From the NCBI RefSeq assembly GCF_020099395.1, contig NZ_CP083590.1:3472001-3536000 (forward strand): a stretch of DNA of 64,000 nt. Direction: 5' to 3'. Position 1 is the first letter of the stretch, and each line of letters starts with the position of its first letter. This document shows, one piece after another, positions 8,847 through 51,686 of this stretch. Position numbers and translations under genes: made by a program. This DNA comes from Streptomyces mobaraensis (GTDB lineage Bacteria > Actinomycetota > Actinomycetes > Streptomycetales > Streptomycetaceae). The notes beneath the pieces are model-generated. The model saw only the letters and a program-made list of their open reading frames with translations. It searched no databases and was not told the origin of the DNA.

Positions 8847-8869
8847 ATTGTGGGGCAGACCACTGACAA
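8847..8869 (-). promoter_or_regulatory. RecA-NDp/PafBC-type promoter of holB
   Basis: On the minus strand the 10-mer TTGTCAGTGG (8869-8860) is followed after exactly 7 nt by CACAAT (8852-8847). This matches the actinobacterial LexA-independent DNA-damage promoter as I recall it (TTGTCRGTGG, then a TAnnnT -10) except for the first -10 base. Transcription would start about 40 nt before the holB ATG, leaving room for its Shine-Dalgarno sequence. Confidence 0.7.
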
Positions 8870-8930
8870 CGGAGCCCGGGCAAGGGCCCCGCCACAGTGC
8901 GGGCGCCCGCTTCCGGGCGCCCTCAGCCGC

Positions 8931-11900
8931 TCAGCGGCCTCCGCGCCGGCCGGAGGCGCCGGAAGCGCCGCCGTCCGGGCCGTCGCCGGAGCCGCCGTCC
9001 CGCCGGCCCAAGAGGTCGTCGGCGAGCGTCGGCGCCTCGGCGTCGTCGCCCTCCCGGCCGCCCTCGGCCCACTCCGGGCGCCGCCGGGCCTTGCGCGCCC
9101 GGTCCGCCGCGTCCGCGGCGTCCGCTCCGGCGCCGGGGCGCGGCATCTCGCGCGTGCGCATGCCGTCCGCGTCGTCCGCCGGAGCGCGCTCCCCCTCGGC
9201 GCCGCCGGACTCCTCCGGGCGGAACAGCCAGTCCGGAACCCGCTCCACCGGGTCCTCGGCCCGCCCGGCGTCCGTCGGCCCCGCGGCCTTGGCACCGTCC
9301 GCGCCCTCCGTGCCGTCCGCGCCGTCCCTGCCGGAGCGCAGCCCCCAGGTGACCCGCTGCACCGGCGGCGGAAGCGTGGGCACGGGCGGCAACACCGTCG
9401 TCTCGTCCTCGCCACCACGGCCCTCGGCCGCTTCCGGAGCACCGGCCTTCCCACCCGACGCCGGCTTCTCCGAACGCACCGGCGGCAGATACGTGGTCTC
9501 GTCCTCCGCGCCGACGGGCTTCCGCTTCCCGGCACGAGCCGGGCCGGTGGCCCGCAGCACGGCCGTCTCGTCCCCCGCACCACGGCCCCCGGCCGCTTCC
9601 GGAGCGCCGGTCTCCTCAGCCGATGCCGACTCGTCCGAACGCACCGGCGGCAGGTAAGCGGTCTCGTCCTCCGCACCGACGGGCTTCCGCTTCCCGGCAC
9701 GAGCCGGGCCGGTGGCCGGCAGCACGGCCGTCTCGTCCCCCGCACCACGGCCCCCGGCCGCTTCCGGAGCGCCGGTCTCCTCACCCGATGCCGACTCGTC
9801 CGAACGCACCGGCGGCAGATACGTGGTCTCGTCCTCCGCACCGACGGGCTTCCGCTTCCCGGCACGAGCCGGGCCGGTGGTCGGCAGCACGGCCGTCTCG
9901 TCCCCCGCGCCGGCCTCGCCGGACGCGGCTTCCGCCCCGCCCGCCCTGTCGGCCTCGTGCGGATCCTTCCGGTGCACCAGCGGCGTCTGGACGGTCACCG
10001 TCTCGTCGGCGTCGCGCATGAGCAGCGTCTCGCGCGGGTCCGGGCGGTGCACGGGCGGGACCCGGAGCTGCTCGGTCCGCTCGGCGTCGGCAGCCCGCGC
10101 CCCGGCCCGAGGCGCGGTGGACCCGGCGTCGGACGCCTTCGCCCGCTTGGTGAGGTCGGCGGCCTTCCCTGCCGCACCGGCACCGCTCTCCCGCAGCGCC
10201 GGCCGCTCGACCGTGGGCACCTCGTCGGCCCCGACGGCGTCGGCCCGCGCCCCGGCGCCGGCCCCCGCCGCACCGCCAGAAGCCACACTGTCAGGAGCCA
10301 CACCGCCAGAAGCCGCTCCGCCACGAGCCACGCCATCCGCGGCCGCACCGCCCGCCGCCGTCCGCGCCTCCTCCGCGCGCAGCAGCGCCTCCTCGGCCTT
10401 CCGCTGCTTCTCGCGCCGCCGCTCCTCGGCCTCGGCGCGCAGCCGCGCCTCCTCCTCGGCCTGCTTGCGCAGCCGCTCCTGCTCGGCGGCCCGGGCGCGC
10501 TCCTCCGCCTCACGGCGCCTGCGCTCCTCGTCCGCGAGCCGGCGCGCCTCCTCGGCGCGCTTCCGCGCCTCCTCCGCCTGCCGTTCGGCCTCCAGGCGCC
10601 GGGCCTCCTCGGCCTCCCGGCGCTTGCGCTCCTCTTCCTCCGCGCGCAGCTTGGCGAGCTGCTCCTGGCGCTCGCGCTCCAGCCGCTCCTCCTCGGCCTT
10701 GCGCGCCGCCTCCTCCTCCGCCTTGCGGCGGGCCTCGGCCTCGGCGGCCCTGCGGGCCTCCTCACGGGCCTCGATCTCCTGGGCGGACAGCGGCAGCACC
10801 TCGTCGAGGCGGTGGCGCACGACGGTGGTGACGGCTTCGGGCTCCTGCCCGGCGTCGACGACGAGGTAGCGCGCCGGGTCGGCGGCGGCCAGGGCGAGGA
10901 AGCCCTTCCGCACCCGCTCGTGGAACTCGGCGGGCTCCGACTCCAGCCGGTCGGGCGCCTCGGTGAAGCGCTCGCGCGCGGTCTCCGGCGAGACGTCCAG
11001 CAGCACCGTCAGGTGCGGAACGAGCCCTTCCGTCGCCCAGCGGTTGATCCGGGCGATCTCGGTCGGGGAGAGGTCGCGGCCGGCGCCCTGGTAGGCGACG
11101 GACGAGTCGATGTAGCGGTCGGAGATGACGACCGCGCCGCGCTCCAGGGCGGGCCGGACGACGGCGTTGATGTGCTCGGCGCGGTCGGCGGCGTACAGCA
11201 GCGCCTCGGCGCGGTCCGAGAGCCCGGCCGACGCGACGTCCAGCAGGATCGCGCGCAGCCGCTTGCCGATGGCGGTGGCGCCGGGTTCGCGGGTGACGAC
11301 CACCTCGTGGCCCTTGGAGCGGATCCACTCGGCGATGGCCTGCACCTGGGTGGACTTGCCGGCGCCGTCGCCGCCGTCGAACACCAGGAAGAAGCCGTTG
11401 GCGGCGGTCGCCTCGGCGGGGTCGCCGTCGCGGACGGCGTCCAGCAGGTCGCGGTGGAACGGCACGCCGTGCCGGTCGTCGGTCTTGCCCAGGACGAGAG
11501 CGCCCACCGGCAGCAGCAGCGCGCCGATCAGCATCAGGGTGAAGGCCGCGCCGCCGTGGTCGAAGACGAAGTTGCCGTTCTCGGCCCGGTGCGGGCCGAT
11601 GAGCGCGGCGAGGACGGGGGCGACGACCGCGGCCGACGCCACGGTGACGCGGACGACCGCGTGCAGGTGCTCCGTGACGCGCGGGCGGCGCTCCTCCTCG
11701 GCCTCCTGGTCGAGGAGGGCGTGCCCGGTGTTCGCGACGACGCCGGCGGCGACGCCCGCGACCAGGATCAGCAGCAGCACGGTCGTGGCGTCGGGCACCA
11801 GCCCGGCCGCCAGCAGCGCGACGCCCGTGACGGCGAGCGAGAGGGCCAGCAGCCTGCGGCGGGAGAACCCGGGCAGGACGCGGCCCGCGCTCCGGATGCC

Positions 11901-12914
11901 GAGGACGGGTCCGCCGGTGAGGGCCAGGGCCAGCAGCCCGAAGGCCACCGGGCCGCCGCCCAGGTCGTAGGCCTGGAGGACGGCGACGCCGAACGCGGCG
12001 GCGACCGCCCCGGCGACGGCCGCGCAGGACAGGACGAAGACGGGGATGCCGCCCGTCCGGCCCTTGTCGGGCGCCTGGTCGCGCTGGGGCCGGCGCAGAC
12101 CCTCCAGCGGGGAGCGCGGGGTCATCTCCCGCGCGCCGGGGAGGGCCAGGAAGTAGACGATCACACCGGAGGCGTTGAACAGGGCCGCGGCGAGGTACGA
12201 GCCGAGCGCCGGCTGGTGCTGGTGGAACCAGTCGATGCCGGACCCCAGCAGATTGCTGACGAGCGTGATGGCGACGAGGGCCGCCGCGGCGGCCGGCAGG
12301 GCGACGAAGGACGTGCGCAGCGTCAGCCGCCGGAGCGCGTCGGCGTGGTCCGGGACGGGCCGGACGGCCGCGCCCTCAAGAGGCGGCCGCGGCAGCAGGG
12401 TAGGCGCCACGCCGTCCTTCGCCACGGTCCACACACGCTCGGCGACACCCAGGACGAACGCCGTGACCAGCAAGGAGACCAGCGCGTTGCTCTCGGTGAA
12501 GTCGATCCACACCGGGGCGACGGCCAGCAGCAGGGCCCGGACGGCGTCGGCGCCGATCATCGTCCAGCGCCGGTCGAGCGGCCCTGAGGGCGCCAGCAGC
12601 GCGTTGAAGGGGCCGAGCAGGACCGTGCCCAGCAGCAGTGTCGCGAGCAGCCGCGCGCCGAGGACGGCGGCCACGGCGAAGGCGGCGCCCCGGTACCCGC
12701 CGCCGAACGATCCGGCGGTGACGGCCGCCTGGAGCGCCAGCAGGAGCAGGACCAGCAGGCCGAGGGCGTCACCGACGCCCCCCGCGGCCTGGGCGCTCCA
12801 CAGCCGCCGCAACGGGGGGATGCGCAGCAGGGCGCGGACGGCACGCTCGCGGGAGTCCGCGGCCAGTGCCCCTGAGGGAGAGGTCACCACTGTTGGCTGC
12901 TCGGCTCGCGTCAT
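8931..12914 (-). CDS. tmk: MFS-like membrane domain / thymidylate kinase fusion with repetitive C-terminal tail
   Basis: A 1327-aa fusion. Residues 1 to about 500 form a transporter-like domain with many hydrophobic helices. The kinase follows: Walker A GGDGAGKST at about 512, TREPG, the SDRYIDSS motif and a complete LID region, so dTMP to dTDP activity is expected. After the kinase comes a roughly 190-residue Glu/Ala/Arg-rich coiled coil. A disordered acidic tail with three 55-residue repeats carrying DETAVLP and DETTYLPP motifs completes the protein. The MFS-tmk fusion is common in Streptomyces. A TAGGCT box 6 nt before the ATG suggests a leaderless mRNA, although GGCAGG also adjoins the start. 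Confidence 0.9.
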   Translation of the reverse strand: MTRAEQPTVVTSPSGALAADSRERAVRALLRIPPLRRLWSAQAAGGVGDALGLLVLLLLALQAAVTAGSFGGGYRGAAFAVAAVLGARLLATLLLGTVLLGPFNALLAPSGPLDRRWTMIGADAVRALLLAVAPVWIDFTESNALVSLLVTAFVLGVAERVWTVAKDGVAPTLLPRPPLEGAAVRPVPDHADALRRLTLRTSFVALPAAAAALVAITLVSNLLGSGIDWFHQHQPALGSYLAAALFNASGVIVYFLALPGAREMTPRSPLEGLRRPQRDQAPDKGRTGGIPVFVLSCAAVAGAVAAAFGVAVLQAYDLGGGPVAFGLLALALTGGPVLGIRSAGRVLPGFSRRRLLALSLAVTGVALLAAGLVPDATTVLLLILVAGVAAGVVANTGHALLDQEAEEERRPRVTEHLHAVVRVTVASAAVVAPVLAALIGPHRAENGNFVFDHGGAAFTLMLIGALLLPVGALVLGKTDDRHGVPFHRDLLDAVRDGDPAEATAANGFFLVFDGGDGAGKSTQVQAIAEWIRSKGHEVVVTREPGATAIGKRLRAILLDVASAGLSDRAEALLYAADRAEHINAVVRPALERGAVVISDRYIDSSVAYQGAGRDLSPTEIARINRWATEGLVPHLTVLLDVSPETARERFTEAPDRLESEPAEFHERVRKGFLALAAADPARYLVVDAGQEPEAVTTVVRHRLDEVLPLSAQEIEAREEARRAAEAEARRKAEEEAARKAEEERLERERQEQLAKLRAEEEERKRREAEEARRLEAERQAEEARKRAEEARRLADEERRRREAEERARAAEQERLRKQAEEEARLRAEAEERRREKQRKAEEALLRAEEARTAAGGAAADGVARGGAASGGVAPDSVASGGAAGAGAGARADAVGADEVPTVERPALRESGAGAAGKAADLTKRAKASDAGSTAPRAGARAADAERTEQLRVPPVHRPDPRETLLMRDADETVTVQTPLVHRKDPHEADRAGGAEAASGEAGAGDETAVLPTTGPARAGKRKPVGAEDETTYLPPVRSDESASGEETGAPEAAGGRGAGDETAVLPATGPARAGKRKPVGAEDETAYLPPVRSDESASAEETGAPEAAGGRGAGDETAVLRATGPARAGKRKPVGAEDETTYLPPVRSEKPASGGKAGAPEAAEGRGGEDETTVLPPVPTLPPPVQRVTWGLRSGRDGADGTEGADGAKAAGPTDAGRAEDPVERVPDWLFRPEESGGAEGERAPADDADGMRTREMPRPGAGADAADAADRARKARRRPEWAEGGREGDDAEAPTLADDLLGRRDGGSGDGPDGGASGASGRRGGR
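9471..9915 (-). repeat. 165-bp in-frame tandem repeat within tmk
   Basis: Three near-identical copies begin at 9471, 9636 and 9801, each starting CGAACGCACC on the plus strand. The 165-bp period equals 55 codons, so copy number can change without a frameshift. Each unit encodes one DETAVL-type and one DET(T/A)YLPP-type motif separated by a basic PARAGKRKPVG stretch. Confidence 0.9.
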
Positions 12915-12920
12915 CCTGCC

Positions 12921-12926
12921 AGCCTA
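12921..12926 (-). promoter_or_regulatory. -10 box of tmk fusion (leaderless type)
   Basis: TAGGCT on the minus strand ends 6 nt before the ATG at 12914, a spacing that puts the transcription start at or next to the start codon. Confidence 0.45.
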
Positions 12927-13003
12927 TCCGGAGCGTCTGAATACCAACCGCCGCCGGGAACACCCGCTCGCATGGCGAGGGGCGCCCGCCTGCGGAAACG
13001 ACC

Positions 13004-13035
13004 GGGCGGCGGAACCGGAATCCGGCCCGCCGCCC
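13004..13035 (-). terminator. hairpin after topA
   Basis: The 9-bp perfect arms GGGCGGCGG (13004-13012) and CCGCCGCCC (13027-13035) lie just downstream of the topA stop. There is no T-tract, which is usual for Streptomyces terminators. Confidence 0.45.
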
Positions 13036-13059
13036 ACTGCGTCCTCTACCTGGCGCCGC

Positions 13060-15909
13060 CTATTCGGCCTTGGCCGCGGCGGCCGTCTTGGCCGCCGTCT
13101 TCTTGGCCGCGGTCTTCTTCGCGGCGGCCGCCTTGGCCGTCGTCGTCTTCTTCGCCGCCGTCTTCTTGGCGGTCGTCGTCTTCTTCGCGGCGGTCTTCTT
13201 GGCCGGGGCCTTCTTGGCCGCCTTCTTCGCGGTCTTCTTGGCCGGCCCCTTGGCCCGCTTCTCCGCGAGCAGCTCGTAGCCACGCTCCGGCGTGATCGTC
13301 TCCACGTCGTCGTCGCGGCGCAGCGTGGCGTTGGTCTCGCCGTCCGTGACGTACGGGCCGAAGCGGCCGTCCTTGACGACCACCGGACGCTCGCTGACCG
13401 GGTCGGTGCCCAGCTCCTTCAGCGGCGGCTTGGCCGCGGCCCGCCCGCGCTGCTTGGGCTGCGCGTAGATCGCGAGGGCCTCCTCCAACGTGATGTCGAA
13501 GATCTGGTCCTCGGTCTCCAGGGAGCGCGAGTCGGTGCCCTTCTTCAGGTACGGGCCGTAGCGGCCGTTCTGCGCGGTGATCTCCACGCCCTCGGCGTCG
13601 GCGCCGACCACGCGCGGCAGGGACATCAGCTTGAGCGCGTCGTCGAGCGTGACCGTGTCGAGGGACATCGACTTGAAGAGCGACGCCGTCCGCGGCTTGA
13701 CCGCGTTCTTGCCGGTCTTCGGCGTGCCCTCGGGCAGCACCTCGGTGACGTAGGGGCCGTAGCGGCCGTCCTTGGCGACGATCGGGTGGCCCGACTCCGG
13801 GTCCGTGCCCAGCTCGTACTCGCCGCTGGGCCGGGCGAACAGCTCCTCCGCGTACTCCACGGTGAGCTCGTCCGGCGCCAGGTCCTCGGGGACGTCCGCG
13901 CGCTGGTGCCCCTCGGTGTCCTTCTCGCCCCGCTCGACGTACGGGCCGTAGCGGCCCACGCGCAGCACGATGCCCTCGCCGACGGGGAACGAGGAGATCT
14001 CCCGGGCGTCGATCGCGCCCAGGTCGGTCACCAGCTCCTTGAGACCGCCGAGGTGGTCGCCGTCGCCGTTGCCCGCCTCGGCGGCACGGCCGGTGACCTC
14101 CCCCGAGCCCTCGCCGAAGTAGAAGCGGCGCAGCCACGGCACGGCCTGGGCCTCGCCGCGGGCGATGCGGTCGAGATCCTCCTCCATGGCGGCGGTGAAG
14201 TCGTAGTCGACGAGCCGGCCGAAGTGCTTCTCCAGCAGGTTGACGACCGCGAAGCTCAGGAAGGACGGGACGAGCGCGGTGCCCTTCTTGAAGACGTAGC
14301 CGCGGTCGAGGATGGTGCCGAGGATGGACGCGTAGGTCGACGGGCGGCCGATCTCGCGCTCTTCCAGCTCCTTGACCAGCGACGCCTCGGTGTAGCGGGC
14401 CGGCGGCTTGGTGGCGTGGCCGTCGGCGGTGATCTCCTCGGCGGTCAGCGCGTCGCCCTCGGTGACCTGCGGCAGCCGGCGCTCGCGGTCGTCGAGCTCG
14501 GCGTTCGGGTCGTCGGCGCCCTCGACGTACGCCTTCATGAAGCCGTGGAAGGTGATCGTCTTGCCGGAGGCGCTGAACTCGGCGTCCCGGCCGTCGGAGG
14601 CGCGGCCCGCGATCTTCACGGTGACCGAGTTGCCCACCGCGTCCTTCATCTGGGAGGCAACGGTCCGCTTCCAGATGAGCTCGTACAGCCGGAACTGGTC
14701 ACCCGTCAGACCGGTCTCCGCGGGGGTGCGGAAACGATCACCCGAAGGACGGATGGCCTCGTGCGCCTCCTGGGCGTTCTTGACCTTCCCCGCGTAGGTG
14801 CGCGGCTTCTCCGGCAGGTAGTCGGCCCCGTAGAGCTGGGTGACCTGCGCCCGGGCGGCGGTAATGGCCGTGTCGGACAGCGTCGTGGAGTCCGTACGCA
14901 TATAGGTGATGAAGCCGTTCTCGTACAGCTTCTGGGCCACCTGCATGGTCGCCTTCGCACCGAAGCCCAGCTTGCGCGACGCCTCCTGCTGGAGGGTCGT
15001 GGTGCGGAAGGGGGCGTACGGGGAGCGGCGGTACGGCTTGGATTCGACCGAGCGCACCGCGAACGAGGTGTCGGCGAGGGCGGCGGCCAGCGCGCGGGCG
15101 TTCGCCTCGTCCAGGTGCAGCACCTGGGCGGCGTCCTTGAGCCGCCCGGTCGAGCCGAAGTCACGGCCCTGGGCGACCCGCCGGCCGTCCACGGAGGACA
15201 GCCGCGCGGCGAAGGTGCCGGGCTCGGCGGCGTCACCGCCGCGGCCGGTGGAGAAGGTGCCGGTGAGGTCCCAGTACTCGGCAGAGCGGAACGCGATCCG
15301 CTCGCGCTCCCGCTCCACGACGAGCCGGGTGGCCACGGACTGCACCCGTCCGGCGGACAGCCGGGGCATGACTTTCTTCCACAGGACCGGCGAGACCTCG
15401 TAGCCGTAGAGGCGGTCGAGGATGCGCCGGGTCTCCTGGGCGTCGACCAGCTTCTTGTTCAGCTCGCGCGGGTGGGCGACGGCGGCCTGGATCGCGTCCT
15501 TGGTGATCTCGTGGAAGACCATCCGGCGGACCGGGACCTTGGGCTTGAGGACCTCCTGCAGGTGCCAGGCGATGGCCTCGCCCTCGCGGTCCTCATCGGT
15601 GGCCAGGAAGAGCTCGTCCGACTCGGCCAACAGCTCCTTGAGCTTCTTGACCTGGTCCTTCTTGTCGGCGTTGACGACGTAGACGGGCTGGAAGTCCGCG
15701 TCCACGTTCACGCCCAGGCGGGCCCACGGCTCGCCCTTGTACTTGGCCGGGACCTCGGCGGCCCCGTTCGGCAGGTCACGGATGTGCCCGACGCTCGCCT
15801 CGACGACGTATCCGGGGCCGAGGTAGCCCTTGATCGTCTTCGCCTTGGCAGGCGACTCGACGATGACGAGTCGGCGGCCGCCCTGTGCGGTCTCGCTGGT
15901 CGGGGACAA
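13060..15909 (-). CDS. topA: DNA topoisomerase I
   Basis: A type IA topoisomerase that relaxes negative supercoils. The Toprim domain opens with RRLVIVESPAKAKTIKGYL and contains TDEDREGEA. The catalytic tyrosine is Y336 in FITYMRTDST. Several repeats with KDGRYGPYV-type motifs form the C-terminal region, which ends in an actinobacterial Lys/Ala tail (AKKTAAKKT type) instead of zinc fingers. I chose the TTG start at 15909 because GGAAGAAG precedes it and the 949-aa product matches Streptomyces TopA; ATG 15939 would add 10 residues. It forms its own transcription unit. Confidence 0.93.
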   Translation of the reverse strand: MSPTSETAQGGRRLVIVESPAKAKTIKGYLGPGYVVEASVGHIRDLPNGAAEVPAKYKGEPWARLGVNVDADFQPVYVVNADKKDQVKKLKELLAESDELFLATDEDREGEAIAWHLQEVLKPKVPVRRMVFHEITKDAIQAAVAHPRELNKKLVDAQETRRILDRLYGYEVSPVLWKKVMPRLSAGRVQSVATRLVVERERERIAFRSAEYWDLTGTFSTGRGGDAAEPGTFAARLSSVDGRRVAQGRDFGSTGRLKDAAQVLHLDEANARALAAALADTSFAVRSVESKPYRRSPYAPFRTTTLQQEASRKLGFGAKATMQVAQKLYENGFITYMRTDSTTLSDTAITAARAQVTQLYGADYLPEKPRTYAGKVKNAQEAHEAIRPSGDRFRTPAETGLTGDQFRLYELIWKRTVASQMKDAVGNSVTVKIAGRASDGRDAEFSASGKTITFHGFMKAYVEGADDPNAELDDRERRLPQVTEGDALTAEEITADGHATKPPARYTEASLVKELEEREIGRPSTYASILGTILDRGYVFKKGTALVPSFLSFAVVNLLEKHFGRLVDYDFTAAMEEDLDRIARGEAQAVPWLRRFYFGEGSGEVTGRAAEAGNGDGDHLGGLKELVTDLGAIDAREISSFPVGEGIVLRVGRYGPYVERGEKDTEGHQRADVPEDLAPDELTVEYAEELFARPSGEYELGTDPESGHPIVAKDGRYGPYVTEVLPEGTPKTGKNAVKPRTASLFKSMSLDTVTLDDALKLMSLPRVVGADAEGVEITAQNGRYGPYLKKGTDSRSLETEDQIFDITLEEALAIYAQPKQRGRAAAKPPLKELGTDPVSERPVVVKDGRFGPYVTDGETNATLRRDDDVETITPERGYELLAEKRAKGPAKKTAKKAAKKAPAKKTAAKKTTTAKKTAAKKTTTAKAAAAKKTAAKKTAAKTAAAAKAE

Positions 15910-15961
15910 CTTCGCTCTTCTTCCGGTCGCAATCGGCATGGGAGTTGCGGTGACGCTGCGG

Positions 15962-15992
15962 AGTGTGACGGTACATCCCGCCCCCGTGTCAA
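15962..15992 (-). promoter_or_regulatory. topA promoter with 19-bp spacer
   Basis: On the minus strand a perfect -35 TTGACA (15992-15987) is separated by 19 bp from CACACT (15967-15962). A long spacer is a feature of supercoiling-sensitive promoters and would suit homeostatic topA control. The rest of the 358-bp gap 15910-16267 shows no further element I can support. Confidence 0.5.
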
Positions 15993-16267
15993 ACGGGGAA
16001 AGCCCGCAACGCCACTCGAACGGTAACCCGACAAGCGTCCTGTCTGCCGCCCGGAGCGTCGGACGCCACATCCGCCGCGTCCCGGCCTCCGCACCGTACG
16101 AGCCGGCGGAGAAGCCGGGAACGCGTCGCGGAGGAGCCGTGGAGGAACCGCGGCGAAAGCCCCGAGCGCCGTGTCGGACCCTGCTGGCAGGATGACCACC
16201 GCACGTCATGCCATCCGATCGTGCGACTGATTTCCGCCAGACCTCACACGGCAGGAGTTTTCCGCCC

Positions 16268-17629: not shown

Positions 17630-17651
17630 CGCCCCCGCGAGCGCCGCTGCC

Positions 17652-17724: not shown

Positions 17725-19257
17725 TCACCCCTCCGGGATCAGGAACCCCTGCTCCACCAGCAGCCTGATCGCCTCGGGCGTCCGGTCGCGCAGCAGGACC
17801 GGATCCTCGCCGACGAGCTGGGCGATGGCGTCGAGGATGCGGCCCGCGCTGAGAGTCCCGTCACAGACCCCGGCGAACCCGGCTCCCACGGTGTCGACCT
17901 TGGTGGCGCGGCGCATGCCCCGGTTCTGCCGCAGCACCACATGCTCCGGATCCTCCGCGCCCGGCAGCCCGACCTGCTCCTGGACGACCTCGGGAGCCAG
18001 CCGGAAGCGGGCCTCCAGCAGCGCCGCGTCGTCGTGCGTGCGCAGGAACTCCTGCCGTGCGAAGTGGTCGCGGATGCTCGCGCCCAGCGGCTGCTCCACC
18101 GGGTGCGGCCACTCCTCGGCGATCACCGAGGGCCGCTCGGCCCCCGACTTGCGCAGGGTGATCCAGCCGAAACCGACCCCCTTCGTCCGCCGCTCCTCGA
18201 ACTCCGCGAGCCACGCGTCGTACCGCGCCGCGTACTCCTCGGGGGAGGCCCGGTGGTCCCCCGCGTCCCGCAGCCACAGCTCGGCGTACTGGGCCACGTC
18301 CTGGACCTCCCGCTGGACGATCCAGGCGTCGCAGCCGGCCGGGACCCAGGACGAGAGCCGCTCCCGCCAGTCCTCCCCCTCGACGTGCTGCCAGTTGGCG
18401 AGCAACTGGCAGTAACCGCCGTCGTTGAGCCGGTCCGCCGCCTGGGACACCAGCGTGCGGCAGAGGTCGTCGCCGCCCATGCCGCCGTCCCGGTAGGTGA
18501 GCCGGGCCCCGGGGGAGATGACGAACGGCGGGTTCGAGACGATCAGGTCGTACGTCTCGTCGGCCACCGGCTCGAACAGCGAACCCTGGCGCAGGTCCGC
18601 CTCCGGCGCGCCGGAGAGCGCGAGCGTGAGCCGGGCGAAGCGCAGGGCACGCGGGTTCAGATCGGTCGCGGTGACGCGGCCCGCGTGCTGGGCCGCGTGC
18701 AACGCCTGGATGCCTGAGCCGGTGCCGAGGTCGAGGGCGCTGCCGACCGGCGTACGGACCGTGATGCCGGCGAGCGTGGTGGAGGCGCCGCCGACGCCGA
18801 GGACGAGCTCCGAGCGGTCGATGCCGGACGGGCCCGCCCCGCCCCCGGCGATACCCCCCGCGCCGCCGACCGCGCAGCCCAGGTCGGAGACGATCCACCA
18901 GTCCTGCCCCTCCGGGCCGCCGTAAGGCCGCACGTCGACGCTCGCGCGGACGGCATCACCGTCGCGGACCAGCCAGCCGTCGGCGAGGCAGTCCTCCAGG
19001 GGGAGCGCGGCGGCGGCCCGCGCGGCGGGCACGGACCGCTGCAGCAGGAAGAGCCGGACCAGGGTCTCCAGCGGGCCGTCCCCCCTGGTGGCGCGCAGGG
19101 CGGGAACGGTCTCGCTGCGCGCGAGCGCGGCGTAGGCGGGGGCGCCGAGCAGTTCGAGCAGACCGTCGGCCGTGAAGGCGGCGGCGAGCAGGGCGTCGCG
19201 CAGCCGGTCGGTGCGCGCGGACTGGACGGGTGCGTCGGCGGAAGGCAGCGTACTCAC
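17725..19257 (-). CDS. class I SAM-dependent methyltransferase (RsmC/PrmC-like core)
   Basis: A 510-aa protein. A helical N-terminal region of about 170 residues precedes a Rossmann fold with SAM motif ALDLGTGSGIQALHA and the catalytic motif VSNPPF, typical of N-methyltransferases acting on amino groups of nucleic acids or glutamine. A C-terminal extension follows. The target is not recognisable. The GTG start lies 6 nt after a -10 box of a damage-type promoter, with no Shine-Dalgarno sequence, so leaderless translation is likely. That promoter hints at a DNA-damage role. Confidence 0.82.
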   Translation of the reverse strand: MSTLPSADAPVQSARTDRLRDALLAAAFTADGLLELLGAPAYAALARSETVPALRATRGDGPLETLVRLFLLQRSVPAARAAAALPLEDCLADGWLVRDGDAVRASVDVRPYGGPEGQDWWIVSDLGCAVGGAGGIAGGGAGPSGIDRSELVLGVGGASTTLAGITVRTPVGSALDLGTGSGIQALHAAQHAGRVTATDLNPRALRFARLTLALSGAPEADLRQGSLFEPVADETYDLIVSNPPFVISPGARLTYRDGGMGGDDLCRTLVSQAADRLNDGGYCQLLANWQHVEGEDWRERLSSWVPAGCDAWIVQREVQDVAQYAELWLRDAGDHRASPEEYAARYDAWLAEFEERRTKGVGFGWITLRKSGAERPSVIAEEWPHPVEQPLGASIRDHFARQEFLRTHDDAALLEARFRLAPEVVQEQVGLPGAEDPEHVVLRQNRGMRRATKVDTVGAGFAGVCDGTLSAGRILDAIAQLVGEDPVLLRDRTPEAIRLLVEQGFLIPEG

Positions 19258-19263: not shown

Positions 19264-19286
19264 ATTGTCGGGGGCACCACTGACAA
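19264..19286 (-). promoter_or_regulatory. RecA-NDp/PafBC-type promoter of the 510-aa methyltransferase
   Basis: Minus strand: TTGTCAGTGG (19286-19277), 7 nt, GACAAT (19269-19264), 6 nt, then the GTG start. The 10-mer is identical to that at holB. Confidence 0.7.
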
Positions 19287-44343: not shown

Positions 44344-44393
44344 CCCGTCGCGTCGGCGATTACCGACCTTCGACCCCGGGCACAGGACCGGGT

Positions 44394-44615
44394 ATGGGCT
44401 GGACGCACGACCATCGCGACCTGACTCAGCAGCGCGGCGCCGATGACGATGCCGCGGTGACTGTGGTGACCGAAGCATCCGAGAGGATGGAGGGACCGCA
44501 CGGCGGCTTCCTCCGGCCGGGGGAGGGCACGGACCCCCAGCTCGGCATCCCGCGCATCATCCGGCGCCGCGCGCGCTGGGTGTCGGCGCGGCTGCGCCAT
44601 CCTCGCGGGCGCTGA
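44394..44615 (+). CDS. hypothetical small protein
   Basis: A 73-aa frame beginning MGWTHDHRDL, acidic in the first half (GADDDAAVTVVTEASERMEG) and ending in an Arg-rich amphipathic segment (IPRIIRRRARWVSARLRHP). Third codon positions are mostly G or C as in real genes here. No clear ribosome-binding site and no recognised family. It is the only plausible gene in the 505-bp gap 44263-44767. Confidence 0.4.
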   Translation: MGWTHDHRDLTQQRGADDDAAVTVVTEASERMEGPHGGFLRPGEGTDPQLGIPRIIRRRARWVSARLRHPRGR

Positions 44616-44767
44616 GCGCCGGGCCGTCGCCCGGTACGGCTCGGCCGGCCCCCGCGGCGCTGACATAGCGCGGGGCTCACGCCCGTAGCGCAGACCCCCT
44701 TTACGCCCCTTTCGCGCCCCCGGAGCGCGCCCTCACGCGCCCCGGACCGGGCGCCTCTGGGGCGCGC

Positions 44768-45967
44768 TCAGAGGGCGCACCCCTGGGTGTCGGCCCGTTC
44801 CACGGCCGTACGCCCCTCCACGACGTCCTCGTGCACCTCGTCCGCCGTCAGCGCGTACCCGGTGTCCGCGTCGTCGAGCGACTTGGCGAAGACCACGCCG
44901 TACACCCGCCCGTCCGGTGTGAGCAGCGGGCCGCCGGAATTGCCCTGCCGCACGGTCGCGTACAGCGAGTAGACGTCACGCCGGACGTAACCGCGGTGGT
45001 AGATGTCGGGGCCGTTGGCGTCCACACGGCTGCGGATGCGGGCGGACCGGACGTCGTAGGCGCCGTTCTCCGGGAAGCCCGCGACGATGGCGCTCATCCC
45101 GCTCTCCGCCTCCGCGCGGGCGAAGCGCAGCTCGGGGGCGCGCAGGTCGGGGACCTGGAGGACGGCGATGTCGCGCTTCCAGTCGTAGAGCACCACCTTG
45201 GCGTCGAGGAGCCGGCCACGCCCGCCGACCTGCACGGTCGGATCCGTCACCCCGCCCACGACGTGGGCGTTGGTCATCACCCGCTGCGGGGCGAAGACGA
45301 AGCCGCTGCCCTCCAGCACCTTCCCGCAGCCCGGCGCGTTGCCGACCACCTTCACGACGCTCCGCTGCGCCTCGGCGGCGACGGCGCTGCCCGAGAGCGC
45401 GGGATCGGGGGCCGGGACGGAGGTGATGGGCTCGGTCGAGAAGGGGGCGAAGACCTGCGGGAAGCCGTTCTGGGCGAGGGCCGTGCTGAAGTCCGCGAAC
45501 CAGGTGTTGGCCTCCGCCGGCACCACCCGGGCCACGCCGAGCAGCACCTTCGACGTGCGGACCTGCTTGCCGAGCGTCGGCAGCGACGTCCCCGCCAGGG
45601 CGGAGCCGATCACCCAGGCGACCAGCAGCATGGCCACCACGTTGACCAGCGCGCCGCCCGTCGCGTCCAGGGCGCGGGCCGGGGACCAGGTGATGTGGCG
45701 GCGCAGCCGGTTCCCCAGGTGGGTGGTGGCGGCCTGGCCCACCGAGGCGCAGACGATCACGATGACCACCGCCGCGACGGCCGCCGGGGTGCCCGGCGTG
45801 CGGTCCCCGGTCGCGTTGTCCCAGATCACGGGCAGTGCGTAGAGGGCGGCCAGCCCGCCGCCGAGGAAACCGATCACCGAGAGCACGCCGACCACGAACC
45901 CCTGGCGGTAGCCGATGACCGCGAACCAGGCGGCGGCCAGCAGCAGCACGATGTCCAGAACGTTCAC
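44768..45967 (-). CDS. MarP-like membrane serine protease (CvpA-type helices plus trypsin domain)
   Basis: A 399-aa protein. Four N-terminal membrane helices (residues about 1-125) precede an extracytoplasmic chymotrypsin-fold protease with catalytic triad H235 (TNAHVV), D266 (DWKRDIAVL) and S344 (RQGNSGGP). C214 and C397 match the positions of the regulatory disulfide reported in mycobacterial MarP, a protease needed for acid resistance. The start is GTG 45967 (VNVLDIVLLL), consistent with homologues. Confidence 0.9.
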   Translation of the reverse strand: MNVLDIVLLLAAAWFAVIGYRQGFVVGVLSVIGFLGGGLAALYALPVIWDNATGDRTPGTPAAVAAVVIVIVCASVGQAATTHLGNRLRRHITWSPARALDATGGALVNVVAMLLVAWVIGSALAGTSLPTLGKQVRTSKVLLGVARVVPAEANTWFADFSTALAQNGFPQVFAPFSTEPITSVPAPDPALSGSAVAAEAQRSVVKVVGNAPGCGKVLEGSGFVFAPQRVMTNAHVVGGVTDPTVQVGGRGRLLDAKVVLYDWKRDIAVLQVPDLRAPELRFARAEAESGMSAIVAGFPENGAYDVRSARIRSRVDANGPDIYHRGYVRRDVYSLYATVRQGNSGGPLLTPDGRVYGVVFAKSLDDADTGYALTADEVHEDVVEGRTAVERADTQGCAL

Positions 45968-46074
45968 CGAAGGGTGCCTCGCATTGCGGTTGTCGACGGT
46001 GGTGACGCGGCGGGGTGTGAGGTGCGGGGGCGACGGGGGGCGCGTGTGACGGTACGGGCTGGCCGCCGGCGTGG

Positions 46075-46767
46075 TCAGGCCGTCCGGTCCAGCAGCACCT
46101 CCCGGCCGGCGTCCCAGGGCCGCTCCCAGCCCGCGTAGTGCAGGATGCGGTCGATCACCCCGGCGGTGAAGCCCCAGACCGTCGCCGAGCCCACGTGGAA
46201 GACGGGGCCCCGGTGGCCGCTGGGGTGGACGGCGGTCGCCCGGTTCGCCGGGTCGGTGAGCTCGGCGACGGGGACGGTGAAGACGCGGGCCGTCTCCGCG
46301 GGGTCGACCGGCCCGACCGGGCTGGGCTCGCGCCACCAGCCGAGGACCGGGGTCACGACGAACCCGCTCACGGGGATGTAGAGGTCCGGCAGCACGCCGA
46401 AGACCTGCACGCCCGAGGGGTCGAGGCCGGTCTCCTCCTCGGCCTCGCGCAGCGCCGCGCGGACCAGGCCGCCATCGGCCGGCTCGCCGTCCTCCGGATC
46501 GAGGGCGCCCCCGGGGAACGACGCCTGGCCGGCGTGCGAGCGCAGGGTTCCGGACCGTTCGAGGAGCAGCAGCTCGGGGCCGTCCTGCCCTTCGCCGAAG
46601 AGGACCAGCACCGCGGAGAGGCGCCCTCCGGTCTCCGGCGGCAGGAAGCGGCTCAGCTGGTGCGGCTCGACGGTCGTCAGGAAGCGCGCCACCGGTTCCA
46701 GCCACTCGGGCAGCCCCTCGGCGGTCACGGTGATCTCACGGCTGTCGCGGCCGTACGTGCTCCTCAT
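46075..46767 (-). CDS. Nudix hydrolase, CoA pyrophosphatase-like
   Basis: A 230-aa protein with a Nudix box starting at GGALDPEDGE and ending RAALREAEEETGLD, the Glu cluster for metal binding being intact. The upstream SFPGGALD context resembles the UPF0035 CoA-diphosphatase signature, so it may cleave CoA or related nucleotides. ATG 46767 is preceded by GGGGAAG. It lies between marP and nth on the same strand; 107 bp separate it from marP. Confidence 0.85.
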   Translation of the reverse strand: MRSTYGRDSREITVTAEGLPEWLEPVARFLTTVEPHQLSRFLPPETGGRLSAVLVLFGEGQDGPELLLLERSGTLRSHAGQASFPGGALDPEDGEPADGGLVRAALREAEEETGLDPSGVQVFGVLPDLYIPVSGFVVTPVLGWWREPSPVGPVDPAETARVFTVPVAELTDPANRATAVHPSGHRGPVFHVGSATVWGFTAGVIDRILHYAGWERPWDAGREVLLDRTA

Positions 46768-46864
46768 GCGCTTCCCCAATGTTCCCGACGATCTCCCCGG
46801 CGGCTGCCGGGCGTTTCCTGGTCTTCTGGCGGAATCCGCGCCGTGCCTCCGCGCGGCAGCTCCC

Positions 46865-48091
46865 TCACTCGGCTCCCAGCGGGGGCGCGGGCGGGCCCGG
46901 GAAGTCCGGCGGAGGCTTCAGGCGCTGGCCCGGCAGGCCGCCCTTCTCGTACTTGAGCAGCTTCCGCGCCTTCTCCGGGTCGGTCTCGCCCTCGCCGTAC
47001 GCGGGGCAGAGCGGGGCGATCGGGCAGGCACCGCAGGCGGGCTTGCGGGAGTGGCAGATGCGGCGGCCGTGGAAGATGACACGGTGCGAGAGCATCGTCC
47101 AGTCGCTCTTCGGAAAGAGCGCGCAGACCTCGGCCTCGATCTTCTCCGGGTCGGTCTCCGCCGTCCACCGCCAGCGCCGGACGAGCCGCTGGAAGTGCGT
47201 GTCGACCGTTATGCCGGGGACGCCGAAGGCGTTGCCCAAGACGACGTTGGCCGTCTTGCGCCCCACGCCCGGGAGCTTGACGAGGTCCTGGAGGCGGCCG
47301 GGCACCTCACCGCCGAAGTCGTCGCGGAGGGCGGCGGAGAGCCCGAGCAGGGACCGGGCCTTGGCACGGAAGAAGCCCGTCGGGCGGATCAGCTGCTCCA
47401 GCCGCTCCGGGTCGGCCGCCGCCATGTCCTCGGGTGTGGGGTACGCCTCGAAGAGGGCCGGGGTGGTCTGGTTGACGCGCAGGTCGGTGGTCTGGGCGGA
47501 GAGGACCGTGGCCACGAGGAGCTGGAACGGGTTCTCGAAGTCCAGCTCGGGGTGGGCGTACGGGTACACCTCGGCGAGCTCGCGGTTGATCCGCCGGGCG
47601 CGCCGGACGAGCGCGGTCCGCGACTCGGCGGAGGCGCCGCTGCCGCTCGCGGGCGGCGTCGTGCTCTTCCCGGCGGCGGCCTCCTTGGCGCCCACGGTCT
47701 TCTTGGTGGCTGCGGTCTTCTTGGCGCCCACTGTCTTCTTGGTGACGGCGGCCTTCTCGGGGGCAGCGGTCTTCTTCGCCGTGGGCTTCCTCGCCACGGC
47801 CTTCTTCGCCGCCGTTCTCCCGGCGGTGGCGCTCCGGCCGCCGGCCGCCGCCGTCGGGGCGGCGTTCACCACCCCGCCGTCACCGTCGGCCGTCCGCGCC
47901 CCCCGTTCGGCCGACGGCGCCGCCTTCGCCTTCCCGCCCGCCGTCCGGCCGCTCTCTCCACGGGCCTGCGATTTGGTGGTATCTGCGTCTTTTGCGGTTT
48001 TCGCCGCAGGCTGTTCGCCCACAGCGGAATCGCGGGTCGAGGTCACCCTCCCGGCCCCCTTGCCCTGTGCTCTCACCGGCGTATTGGACAC
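46865..48091 (-). CDS. nth: endonuclease III with long basic N-terminal extension
   Basis: A 408-aa DNA glycosylase/AP lyase for oxidised pyrimidines. The HhH-GPD core covers about residues 165-390 with [13 protein letters not shown] (catalytic K279) and VDTHFQRL (D297), spaced 18 apart as in E. coli. The [4Fe-4S] motif is [17 protein letters not shown]. About 150 N-terminal residues are Ala/Lys/Thr-rich with repeats such as KKTVGAKK, like the TopA tail. The GTG start is supported by a damage-type promoter whose -10 box ends 6 nt before it, so the extension is probably translated. Confidence 0.92.
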
Positions 48092-48097
48092 CCGGCC

Positions 48098-48120
48098 AGA
48101 CTAAAGCCCGGCACTGACAT
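48098..48120 (-). promoter_or_regulatory. RecA-NDp/PafBC-type promoter of nth
   Basis: Minus strand: ATGTCAGTGC (48120-48111), 7 nt, TAGTCT (48103-48098), 6 nt, GTG start of nth. The TGTCAGTG core is exact and the -10 fits TAnnnT. Confidence 0.75.
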
Positions 48121-48272
48121 CCGCCCCGAGCGCGGGAAAAGCACAGCCCAATCGGACCCCTGCCGTAGGGCTTCCGTCGACGATGCGCCACACTTGTGTT
48201 TGATCACACAGTTTTACCGACGGGCATCATGGGGACCACGGTCCTCTGTGCATGTCGACAAGGAGAGAACTC

Positions 48273-48947
48273 GTGGACGACGTTCTGCGGCGCGCCCCGC
48301 TCTTCGCGGCGCTCGATGACGAGCAGGCCGCTGAGCTGCGCGCCTCCATGGGCGAGGTCACTCTCGCGAGGGGCGACGCCCTGTTCCACGAAGGCGACCC
48401 GGGCGACCGCCTCTACGTGGTGACCGAGGGCAAGGTGAAGCTTCACCGCACCTCCCCCGACGGCCGCGAGAACATGCTCGCCGTCCTGGGGCCCGGCGAG
48501 CTGATCGGCGAACTGTCCCTCTTCGACCCCGGGCCGCGTACCGCCACCGCGACCGCGCTCACCGAGGTCAAGCTCCTCGGCCTGGGCCACGGCGACCTTC
48601 AGCCGTGGCTGAACGCCCGCCCGGAGGTGGCCACCGCCCTGCTGCGCGCCGTCGCGCGCCGGCTGCGCCGCACCAACGACTCCATGTCGGACCTCGTCTT
48701 CTCGGACGTCCCCGGCCGTGTCGCCAAGGCGCTGCTGGACCTGTCGCGCCGCTTCGGCGTGCAGTCCGAGGAGGGCATCCACGTGGTGCACGACCTCACC
48801 CAGGAGGAGCTGGCCCAGCTCGTGGGCGCCTCCCGGGAGACGGTCAACAAGGCCCTCGCCGACTTCGCCGGCCGCGGCTGGCTGCGCCTGGAGGCGCGCG
48901 CCGTGATCCTGCTGGACGTCGAGCGGCTGGCCAAGCGCTCGCGCTGA
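48273..48947 (+). CDS. crp: CRP/FNR-family cAMP receptor protein
   Basis: A 224-aa regulator with an N-terminal cyclic-nucleotide-binding beta-barrel (FHEGDPGDRLYVVTEGKVKL, then GELIGELSLFDPGPRTATATA) and a C-terminal winged helix (LTQEELAQLVGASRETVNKA). In Streptomyces Crp controls germination, growth and antibiotic production. GTG 48273 is chosen because AAGGAGAG lies 6 nt upstream and the length equals that of S. coelicolor Crp; ATG 48252 would add seven residues. It diverges from nth. Confidence 0.95.
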   Translation: MDDVLRRAPLFAALDDEQAAELRASMGEVTLARGDALFHEGDPGDRLYVVTEGKVKLHRTSPDGRENMLAVLGPGELIGELSLFDPGPRTATATALTEVKLLGLGHGDLQPWLNARPEVATALLRAVARRLRRTNDSMSDLVFSDVPGRVAKALLDLSRRFGVQSEEGIHVVHDLTQEELAQLVGASRETVNKALADFAGRGWLRLEARAVILLDVERLAKRSR

Positions 48948-48973
48948 CCCCGCGGGCGCCGAGGCGCGCCCGC

Positions 48974-49011
48974 CCGTAGGAGGGTCCCGTTCCGGCGGGG
49001 CCCTCCTACGG
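48974..49011. terminator. hairpin between crp and MBL gene
   Basis: Arms CCGTAGGAGGG (48974-48984) and CCCTCCTACGG (49001-49011) form a strong stem between convergent genes and can act in both directions. Confidence 0.65.
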
Positions 49012-49046
49012 CGTGCTCGGGCGCTTCGTCTCGCGGCCCTGGGCTG

Positions 49047-49886
49047 CTAGATCAGCCCGTGCTCGCTCAGATAGTCCAGCTGCGCCCTGACCGACAGCTC
49101 CGCCGCCGGCCACACCGCGCGGTCCACGTCCGCGTACACGTGCGCCACCACCTCGGCCGGAGTCCGGTGCCCCGCCTCGACGGCGGTCTCCACCTGGGCG
49201 AGGCGCTTGGCCCGGTGGGCCAGGTAGAACTCCAGGGCGCCGCGCGCGTCCTCCAGGACGGGGCCGTGGGCGGGCAGGACCGTCCGTACGTCCTCCTCGA
49301 CGACGAGCGACCGCAGCCGGCGCAGTGAGTCGAGGTAGTCGCCGAGCCGCCCGTCCGGGTGGGCGACGACGGTGGTGCCCCGGCCGAGGACGGTGTCCCC
49401 GGTGATCACGGCCCGGTCCGCGGGCAGGTGGAGGCAGACGGAGTCCGCCGTGTGGCCGGGCGCGGGGACGACCCGCAGTTCCAGGCCTCCGACGGTGATG
49501 ACGTCGCCTGCGGCGAGCCCGTCGCCGCCCACGCGCAGGGCCGGGTCCACCGCCCGCACCGGCGCGCCCGTCAGCTCGGCGAAGCGCTCGGCGCCGCCGG
49601 AGTGGTCCAGGTGGCCGTGGGTGAGCAGGGCCAGGGCGATCCGCCGGCCCGATTCCTCGGCCGCGGCGATGACGGCCCGCAGGTGGGACTCGTCCAGCGG
49701 GCCGGGGTCGACGACCACCGCCTGGTCGGACCCGGGCTCGGCCAGCAGCCAGGTGTTGGTGCCGTCGAGCGTCATCGCGGACGGGTTGGGCGCGAGGACG
49801 CAGGTCGCGCGCGGGGTGGCGGGACCGGCCGGGCTGCCCGCCCGGGGGCGCCCCGGCGGTTCGGCGGGTACGGCTGCGTACGTCAT
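49047..49886 (-). CDS. MBL-fold metallohydrolase
   Basis: A 279-aa metallo-beta-lactamase-fold protein with the metal motif THGHLDH, further ligand regions around APGHTADSV and TGDTVLG, and a C-terminal helical domain as in LACTB2-type nucleases or glyoxalase II-like enzymes. The substrate is unknown. Its ATG overlaps the stop of the upstream Nudix gene (ATGA), so the two form an operon. Confidence 0.88.
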   Translation of the reverse strand: MTYAAVPAEPPGRPRAGSPAGPATPRATCVLAPNPSAMTLDGTNTWLLAEPGSDQAVVVDPGPLDESHLRAVIAAAEESGRRIALALLTHGHLDHSGGAERFAELTGAPVRAVDPALRVGGDGLAAGDVITVGGLELRVVPAPGHTADSVCLHLPADRAVITGDTVLGRGTTVVAHPDGRLGDYLDSLRRLRSLVVEEDVRTVLPAHGPVLEDARGALEFYLAHRAKRLAQVETAVEAGHRTPAEVVAHVYADVDRAVWPAAELSVRAQLDYLSEHGLI

Positions 49887-50848
49887 GCGTCGGCTCCCGG
49901 AGTCGCGGTCGCTGGGGTCTGCGGAGGGTCCTGAGGGCGGGACGAGAGGTGCTTGGTGAACTCCTCGTGCCCGGGCCAGCTCAGCACGATCTCTTCCCCC
50001 ACGAGCCGGGCCCGTGCGAGCACCGGGGTGAGATCCCGCTCACCCGCCGCCGCCAGCACCGCGGGCACGTCCCCGTACGGCAGCAGCGCACGCAGCGTGG
50101 AGACGGTGGGCGGCATCATCAGCAGCTCGCCGCGGTCGTATCCGGTGACGGCCTCGGCGGGGCGGATCCAGACGGCCCGGTCGGCCTCGGTGGAGACGCC
50201 GGCGGTGCGCTGGCCTTCGGGCAGGGCCGCCACGAAGAACCAGGTGTCGTACCGCCGGGGTTCGAACTCCGGGGTGATCCAGCGGGCCCAGCCGCCCAGC
50301 AGGTCGCTGCGGAGCAGCAGCCCACGGCGTTCCAGGAAGTCGCCGAACGACAGCTCGTGGCCGGCGAGCGCGGCACGGTCGGCCTCCCACTCCGCGCCGG
50401 TGGTGTCCGCGACGACCGTGGCCGGGTCCGGGCCGGCGAGCAGTACGCCCGCCTCCTCGAAGGTCTCGCGGACGGCCGCGCAGACGACGGCCTGTGCCAC
50501 CTCCGGCTCGACACCAAGCCGGGCGGCCCACTCCCGCGGCGAGGGTCCGGCCCAGGGCACGTCGCGTTCGTCGCGGGGATCGACCGCACCGCCCGGATAC
50601 GCGTACGCGCCGCCGGCGAAGGCCATGGAGGTGCGTCTGCGCAGCATGTGCACGGCCAGGGCGCCGTCGGTGTCCGTCCGCAGCAGCAGGACGGTGGAGG
50701 CGCGCCGGGGCGGTACGGGTTCGAGCTCGCCGTGCGCGAGCCGCCGGATCCGGTCGGGCCACTCGGGCGGGTACCACTGGCCGTTCCCGCGGCCGCTCGC
50801 GCGGTCGTCCGCTCCGTCGCCGCCCGTCCGGCCGTTCGTCGTCACCAT
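49883..50848 (-). CDS. Nudix hydrolase (NUDT19-like)
   Basis: A 321-aa Nudix protein. The box is interrupted: YPGGAVDPRDERD is separated by about 30 residues from VCAAVRETFEEAGVLLA, an insertion typical of the NUDT7/NUDT19-like group. Substrate is unknown, possibly a CoA ester or nucleotide sugar. TAGCAT ends 6 nt before ATG 50848, suggesting a leaderless transcript covering this gene and the MBL gene; GTG 50845 immediately follows the ATG. Confidence 0.85.
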   Translation of the reverse strand: MVTTNGRTGGDGADDRASGRGNGQWYPPEWPDRIRRLAHGELEPVPPRRASTVLLLRTDTDGALAVHMLRRRTSMAFAGGAYAYPGGAVDPRDERDVPWAGPSPREWAARLGVEPEVAQAVVCAAVRETFEEAGVLLAGPDPATVVADTTGAEWEADRAALAGHELSFGDFLERRGLLLRSDLLGGWARWITPEFEPRRYDTWFFVAALPEGQRTAGVSTEADRAVWIRPAEAVTGYDRGELLMMPPTVSTLRALLPYGDVPAVLAAAGERDLTPVLARARLVGEEIVLSWPGHEEFTKHLSSRPQDPPQTPATATPGADA

Positions 50849-50854
50849 GGCCGG

Positions 50855-50860
50855 ATGCTA
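50855..50860 (-). promoter_or_regulatory. -10 box of Nudix-MBL operon (leaderless type)
   Basis: Minus-strand TAGCAT fits TAnnnT and ends 6 nt before the ATG at 50848. Confidence 0.45.
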
Positions 50861-51037
50861 TGCGCTGGTGCGCGGATGTTCGAGGGGGCGCGAAAGGCCC
50901 GGGGCGCCCGGCGCCACGGACCTCCACGCCCGGAACTCCTCACGGCGCGACGGGACTCGGCCGGTCCGCGCCGCACGCCCTGACCGATCCCGGCCCGGCG
51001 ACGGAAGGATCCGGCCGCCCTCGAAACGAAGCGGACG

Positions 51038-51502
51038 TCAGTCCGCGACCTCCACCTGGAGCTCGACCTCGACGGGCGCGTCCAGCGGCAGCACCGCGAC
51101 GCCCACCGCGGAGCGCGCGTGCACGCCCTTGTCGCCGAGGACTTCGCCCAGCAGCTCGCTGGCACCGTTCAGCACGCCGGGCTGGCCGGTGAAGTCGGGC
51201 GCGGAGGCGACGAAGCCCACCACCTTCACCACCCGGACGATCCGGTCCAGATCACCGACGACCGACTTCACGGCGGCCAGGGCGTTCAGCGCGCAGACGC
51301 CCGCCAGCTCCTTGGCCTGCTCGGGGCTGACCTCGGCGCCGACCTTGCCCGTGACGGGAATGGACCCCTTGACCATGGGCAGTTGGCCCGCGGTGAAGAC
51401 GTACGCGCCACTGCGCACGGCCGGCTGGTAGGCGGCCAGCGGAGGAACGACGTCCGGCAGGGTCAGCCCGAGCTCCGCGAGCCTGTCCTCGACGGCACTC
51501 AC
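51038..51502 (-). CDS. RidA family protein
   Basis: A 154-aa member of the YjgF/YER057c/UK114 family. RidA proteins deaminate reactive enamine/imine intermediates such as 2-aminoacrylate. This sequence has the broader RidA_2-like form (TAGQLPMVKGSIPVTGKVGA, later VGVAVLPLDAPVEVELQVEV) and lacks an obvious catalytic arginine in the usual C-terminal context, so it may be non-canonical. The GTG start overlaps the DUF4177 stop (GTGA). Confidence 0.85.
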   Translation of the reverse strand: MSAVEDRLAELGLTLPDVVPPLAAYQPAVRSGAYVFTAGQLPMVKGSIPVTGKVGAEVSPEQAKELAGVCALNALAAVKSVVGDLDRIVRVVKVVGFVASAPDFTGQPGVLNGASELLGEVLGDKGVHARSAVGVAVLPLDAPVEVELQVEVAD

Positions 51503-51657
51503 GCCTTTTCCCGCTTCAGGTAGGCCACGAGCTGCTCGGGGTTGTTCGGCCCGGGAACGACCTGGACGAGCTCCCAGCCGTCCTCGCCCCAGGTGTCCAG
51601 AATCTGCTTGGTCGCGTGCACCAGAAGCGGCACCGTCGCGTATTCCCACTTGGTCAT
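51499..51657 (-). CDS. DUF4177 small protein
   Basis: A 52-aa protein starting MTKWEYATVPLLVHATKQIL and ending EQLVAYLKREKA, with GWELVQVVPG typical of DUF4177. Function is unknown. It is the first gene of a two-gene operon with ridA. The ATG lies 6 nt after a TACAGT -10 box and has no Shine-Dalgarno sequence, so it is likely leaderless. Its divergent neighbour is the first ArsA-type ATPase. Confidence 0.85.
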   Translation of the reverse strand: MTKWEYATVPLLVHATKQILDTWGEDGWELVQVVPGPNNPEQLVAYLKREKA

Positions 51658-51663
51658 GGCCCG

Positions 51664-51686
51664 ACTGTAATGCCTCACACTGACAG
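51664..51686 (-). promoter_or_regulatory. RecA-NDp/PafBC-type promoter of DUF4177-ridA
   Basis: Minus strand: CTGTCAGTGT (51686-51677), 7 nt, TACAGT (51669-51664), 6 nt, ATG of the DUF4177 gene. The core TGTCAGTG is exact; only the outer bases of the 10-mer differ from the holB copy. Confidence 0.7.

Follow-up and report, generated by a model that had tools for sequence, protein, structure and literature searches.

Do four similarly built promoters in one stretch of the Streptomyces mobaraensis genome belong to a common DNA-damage regulon? The window analysed here is the whole stretch of 64,000 nucleotides. An earlier note had proposed that one minus-strand layout recurs in it upstream of holB, a 510-aa methyltransferase gene, nth and a DUF4177-ridA gene pair, and that this layout is the LexA-independent damage promoter recognized through PafBC in mycobacteria. 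Our search of the window located the four 23-mers exactly where they had been placed, all on the minus strand and each ahead of a gene. The motif TGTCAGTG is present in four copies, each inside a 10-mer that is followed by 7 nt and by an xAnnnT hexamer. The core TGTCRG occurs at all four sites, and its distance to the -10 is exactly 10 nt at every one of them. The sites read TTGTCAGTGG-7-CACAAT at holB, TTGTCAGTGG-7-GACAAT-6-GTG at the methyltransferase gene, ATGTCAGTGC-7-TAGTCT-6-GTG at nth and CTGTCAGTGT-7-TACAGT-6-ATG at DUF4177; the -10 is thus TAnnnT at nth and DUF4177, and the other two lack the first T. The elements and their genes are:

8860..8869, minus strand: candidate -26 (PafBC-type) box of holB, TTGTCAGTGG (matrix score and footprint)
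8847..8852, minus strand: predicted -10 box of holB, CACAAT, 45 nt before the ATG (from the sequence)
7563..8801, minus strand: holB, DNA polymerase III delta-prime subunit (NCBIfam NF005926, 541 bits, cut-off 300; Pfam PF13177)
19277..19286, minus strand: candidate -26 box of the methyltransferase gene, TTGTCAGTGG (matrix score)
19264..19269, minus strand: predicted -10 box of the methyltransferase gene, GACAAT, 6 nt before the GTG (leaderless type)
17725..19257, minus strand: 510-aa class I methyltransferase, DUF7059-MTS-DUF7782 (Pfam PF23186, PF05175 and PF25004; NPPF motif seen)
48111..48120, minus strand: candidate -26 box of nth, ATGTCAGTGC (matrix score and footprint)
48098..48103, minus strand: predicted -10 box of nth, TAGTCT, 6 nt before the GTG (leaderless type)
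46865..48091, minus strand: nth, endonuclease III with an N-terminal extension (TIGR01083, 251.9 bits, cut-off 211.7, match from residue 164; PF00730)
51677..51686, minus strand: -26-like box of DUF4177-ridA, CTGTCAGTGT (matrix score; absent from most of the genus)
51664..51669, minus strand: predicted -10 box of DUF4177-ridA, TACAGT, 6 nt before the ATG (leaderless type)
51499..51657, minus strand: DUF4177 protein, 52 aa (PF13783, 28.0 bits, cut-off 25)
51038..51502, minus strand: RidA-family protein, 154 aa, after the DUF4177 gene in the same direction (PF14588 and PF01042, matched in the enclosing 273-aa frame 51038-51859)

The earlier note had also placed the end of the -10 exactly 6 nt before the start codon in three of the four cases, which holds for the methyltransferase gene, nth and DUF4177. 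The average distance from the -10 to the transcription start is 6.3 nt in S. lividans (PMC8079986), so this arrangement suits promoters of a leaderless type at the three sites. At holB, 45 nt separate the end of the -10 from the ATG, with GGAGG a little ahead of the start codon.

In the window, four copies of TGTCAGTG compare with an expectation of 0.86, and four were reached in one of 100 shuffles. We built a matrix from 54 sites elsewhere in the genome, omitting nth and DUF4177 (holB and the methyltransferase site were never part of the set). With this matrix the four window sites took ranks 1-4 (scores of 21.5-26.0), ahead of the next window match at 13.9; the highest score in 60 order-2 Markov sequences was 18.3. 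Genome-wide, TGTCRGTG-N{4,13}-TAnnnT gave 58 matches against seven for the reversed control, and 56 of the 58 had the N8 spacing among the ten spacings allowed. Under even spacing, the probability of such a concentration is near 1e-53 for one named spacing. When any first base of the -10 was allowed (xAnnnT), 124 matches were obtained, compared with 12 for the reversed control. The genome scan that the earlier note had suggested therefore yields a clear excess, nearly all of it at one spacing.

The architecture has precedents. The RecA-NDp promoter of S. rimosus recA is TTGTCAGTGGC-N6-TAGggT (Ahel et al. 2002, quoted in PMC2375139), and the S. mobaraensis recA promoter is TTGTCAGTGGC-N6-TAGCGT; 10-mer, spacing and TAnnnT -10 agree with those of the S. 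mobaraensis sites. As quoted there, however, RecA-NDp was described for recA, and the -10 at two of the window sites is CACAAT or GACAAT. The mycobacterial PafBC motif is given as TGTCGG-N10-TAnnnT (PMC8151990), which equals the geometry found here and bears out the likeness to PafBC promoters claimed in the earlier note, now for a genome-wide set rich in repair genes. The mycobacterial motif has TGTCGG, whereas 45 of the 56 N8 sites of S. mobaraensis have TGTCA, and PafBC is a predicted reader here. The SIGffRid study of 2008 described TGTCAGT motifs in S. coelicolor and S. avermitilis, with 67 S. coelicolor genes, 13-20 of them for DNA repair; ung, uvrB, radA, dinG and polymerase I are named (PMC2375139). 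It reports the same box, but its main-text section gives loose spacers and no regulator, and leaves holB, nth, the methyltransferase and DUF4177-RidA unnamed (the full gene table is in its supplement). The motif is thus already in print for Streptomyces, for recA since 2002 and for 67 S. coelicolor genes since 2008, and what is new is the additional members. In the open-licence literature we found no experimental PafBC regulon for Streptomyces. According to a 2022 paper, a first search indicated that S. venezuelae does not conserve the PafBC motif of M. smegmatis, and the paper leaves the question open (PMC9380542).

As targets we took the next coding-like frame after each match by a rough GC-position rule, with the second-best frame picked by hand in three cases. 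The earlier note had expected such motifs near start codons, and at 29 of the 56 N8 sites a start codon follows the -10 by 6-9 nt (by the same kind of rough rule, so that a few starts are probably not true). For 13 of the 56 targets, nth included, the family assignment to DNA repair, recombination or replication is firm: RecA, two UvrD/PcrA-type helicases, RadA, Nth, DnaX, an AlkZ-like glycosylase, UvrB, UvrC, an exonuclease with BRCT, RuvC, RarA/MgsA and uracil-DNA glycosylase. Further likely targets are rpsF followed by an ssb-like frame (identified by eye) and a protein with weak similarity to the DarG macrodomain antitoxin (32 bits against a model cut-off of 250). The S. coelicolor macrodomain protein SCO6735 has a RecA-NDp promoter and is UV-inducible, as reported in PMC5087735. 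We regard the set as a candidate list only, since no Pfam family was matched (E 0.001) by 15 of the 56 targets, and many of the remainder, such as transporters, peptidases and kinases, have no evident damage link.

Two side observations concern these targets. Three families that remove ADP-ribose each stand behind such a box, namely NADAR (L371), an ADP-ribosylglycohydrolase (L365) and the weakly DarG-macrodomain-like protein (L055), as would fit a response that includes reversing ADP-ribosylation. Moreover, two DUF7691 proteins (L022 and L393) each follow a leaderless-type box, one with a TAnnnT -10 and one with an extended -10.

The sites lacking the first T may represent a second kind of -10. 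Of 100 listed among the 124 xAnnnT matches, 43 were TAnnnT and 57 lacked the first T. An extended -10, with TG one base ahead of the hexamer, was present in 16 of 35 TGTCA sites without the first T among the matches listed, and in none of the 56 TAnnnT sites (Fisher p 1.6e-8, for a comparison picked after viewing the list). None of the 22 TGTCG sites without the first T among the matches listed carried the extended TG, and these may be mostly chance matches. The holB and methyltransferase sites are also without it. Two of the 35 non-T TGTCA sites lie in the window; from the others we chose 20 by eye and scanned their targets. The families found include NADAR, an ADP-ribosylglycohydrolase, a DEAD helicase, a topoisomerase IV/gyrase A subunit, a 5'-3' exonuclease of the DNA polymerase I type and a further exonuclease; three of the 20 had no family match. 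On these data we lean slightly towards a full Streptomyces PafBC response of roughly 56 to 100 promoters, which would comprise repair genes, the clamp-loader genes dnaX and holB, and the macrodomain, ADP-ribosylglycohydrolase and NADAR genes. Its -10 would be either TAnnnT or, with the help of an extended TGN element, xAnnnT.

Conservation of the four boxes was compared in related genomes. The nth sample comprised 110 loci, from 30 genomes of the genus (its own included), 79 Streptomyces and one '[Kitasatospora] papulosa', which are not mutually independent; the 80 named loci do not include S. venezuelae. The nth box TGTCRGTG was exact in 70 of the 110 loci and had one mismatch in 27 (97 within one mismatch). 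In the 101 loci anchored on the -10 and the start, it was exact in 66 and had one mismatch in 26, and the shorter TGTCRG was exact in 91. When the box was slid from -8 to +6 in the anchored loci, no other offset gave a match. Four of the nine unanchored loci had the exact box, one had it with one mismatch and four had none. For holB we examined 30 loci, two of them clipped by a contig end. The anchor CACA[AC]T lay upstream of holB in 28 of the 30, and TGTCRG was exact, at the same distance from the anchor, in 26 of these 28; TGTCRGTG was exact in 15 anchored loci and had one mismatch in six. The flanks of the holB loci and the distance to the ATG vary, and at both genes the box stays while spacer and flanks drift. 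Since the anchors include the -10, constancy of the -10 itself is partly by construction.

The other two boxes are not conserved genus-wide. At the methyltransferase gene TGTCRG was found in 12 of 30 loci (11 of 27 anchored on the -10 and start, and one of three unanchored), and five of five orthologues from outside the genus (16 genomes searched) had no box. At DUF4177-RidA, TGTCRG occurred in three of 30 loci (one of the 30 being a second copy in the same genome), all among the 25 anchored loci and in none of the five unanchored ones; TGTCRGTG was exact in two of 30 and had one mismatch in two. A TA[CA]AGT -10 with the start codon was kept in 25 of these 30 loci, mostly without a box. DUF4177-RidA thus serves as a contrast within the data, in that relatedness by itself does not preserve the box.

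Because of their footprints across the genus, we regard nth and holB as sound new members by comparative evidence, with a promoter that is conserved and probably functional; the earlier note had considered both to be plausible damage genes. Its two new candidates fared differently. The methyltransferase gene is a plausible member in part of the genus, and the DUF4177-RidA box may be a recent gain or chance, so that membership of this gene pair is doubtful.

We then considered the candidate regulator. The genes pafB and pafC are adjacent in the S. mobaraensis genome, in one locus with an AAA ATPase frame (near the stretch edge), two Pup-ligase-family proteins, Pup, two proteasome subunits, an FKBP protein and TatA:

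L187:11416-12492: pafB, in the S. mobaraensis genome

The best matches of PafB and PafC were the PafBC chains of 7p5x, 9fnd and 6sj9. The sequence FxRMFER of the PafB recognition helix was present in 17 of 18 PafB loci (the best 18 of 30), the eighteenth coming from family f12, outside the class. Arginines R44 and R48 of this helix are present in S. mobaraensis PafB, and the key helix residues are identical to those of the mycobacterial protein. In M. smegmatis, a double mutant of the two equivalent arginines has the deletion phenotype (PMC6789036); PafBC is activated by single-stranded DNA, with PafB on the -26 motif and PafC in contact with sigma domain 4 (PMC11804915). S. mobaraensis PafB has about 40 extra residues just ahead of the recognition helix, an insert that is missing in four and shorter in two of six other Streptomyces.

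We scanned 148 genomes of the phylum with the N8 and N9 forms of the motif, comparing only these two spacings. The N8 form gave 29-70 matches in all seven genomes of the genus (controls 0-3) and 14-21 in eight of nine genomes from the rest of the class (controls 0-3), with three matches in the ninth, G008, where PafB is present. Among the matches listed, sites in these other class genomes were mostly TGTCG. The N9 form gave 0-2 matches in genomes of the genus, 0-1 in eight of the nine other class genomes and six in G044. A mycobacterial spacer one base longer than that of Streptomyces was ruled out, as the N9 form is nearly empty in the genus and in eight of the nine other class genomes, and the printed mycobacterial motif has the same spacing. 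At least five sites were found in 19 of 54 genomes with a PafB-like match versus two of 94 without, an association that tracks phylogeny and is weak evidence. Upstream of recA, box and spacing were exact in 11 of 12 class genomes (three of the genus) and the twelfth had one mismatch; seven genomes outside the class had 2-3 mismatches in their best match. The recA of genome G125 is split by about 1 kb in an intein-like manner. Five genomes of family f12, which lies outside the class, had TGTCRGACC at the same spacing as best match upstream of recA (within 400 nt and partly chosen). This variant, which contains the near-palindrome GTCRGAC, is also found at holB in some Streptomyces. A scan of 400 kb from one f12 genome gave a single TGTCRGAC-TAnnnT match at the expected spacing and one at another, and we did not treat the variant as a genome-wide class.

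It is very likely that the four window sites belong to a genome-wide set of RecA-NDp/PafBC-type promoters, with PafBC as the predicted activator. In the mechanism that we propose, the heterodimeric WYL activator PafBC would be switched on by single-stranded DNA arising in damage and would join RNA polymerase carrying the housekeeping sigma factor, which we take to be HrdB in Streptomyces. PafB would read TGTCRG(TG) at about -26 via its FxRMFER helix while PafC holds sigma domain 4, and sigma would open a -10 that starts exactly 10 nt after TGTCRG, so that a -35 would not be needed. About half of the sites would have their transcription start directly on the start codon. For Streptomyces we infer PafBC binding, damage induction and these start sites from the sequence features described above.

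The box could instead be a damage promoter element that is read in Streptomyces by another WYL activator or by a special sigma factor. The genome has eight WYL matches, and PafBC dependence was left open for Streptomyces in the 2022 paper (PMC9380542), but box and spacing equal the mycobacterial PafBC motif (PMC8151990). Moreover, the PafB recognition helix is unchanged, pafBC lies in its usual locus and the -10 is of the housekeeping type. The box is too close to the -10 for a -35, and the distance between them thus also speaks against such a regulator, which we consider unlikely.

It is very improbable that the window sites as a group are chance matches next to ordinary housekeeping promoters whose -10 is of the TAnnnT type. 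Most DUF4177-RidA promoters of the genus keep the -10 and the start without the box, and chance is possible for that one site. Against chance in general stand the genome-wide excess at a fixed spacing, window scores unmatched in the Markov sequences and the persistence of the nth and holB boxes amid drifting surroundings, which already makes chance unlikely for both. Even less probable is that the genes are damage-inducible through LexA and that the box is incidental. The sequence GAACNNNNGTTC, which we take to be the LexA-type palindrome, is absent at up to one mismatch within 200 bp of all four sites; its nearest match at that threshold lies upstream of the DUF4177 box, at 51897 and thus 211 bp away. 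In favour of LexA, 175 LexA sites in S. venezuelae have been linked to genes that respond to damage (PMC9380542).

Finding a box in a single genome is insufficient as evidence, as two of the four boxes in the window lack genus-wide conservation, and nth and holB emerge as two well-kept candidate targets of the predicted PafBC-type promoter set. Streptomyces, for which a LexA-independent damage response had been left open in 2022, conserves the element with its exact geometry as well as the recognition helix of PafB, the likely regulator. With about 56 boxes, often before repair genes, and the nth and holB copies kept, our findings suggest that Streptomyces has a second damage response.
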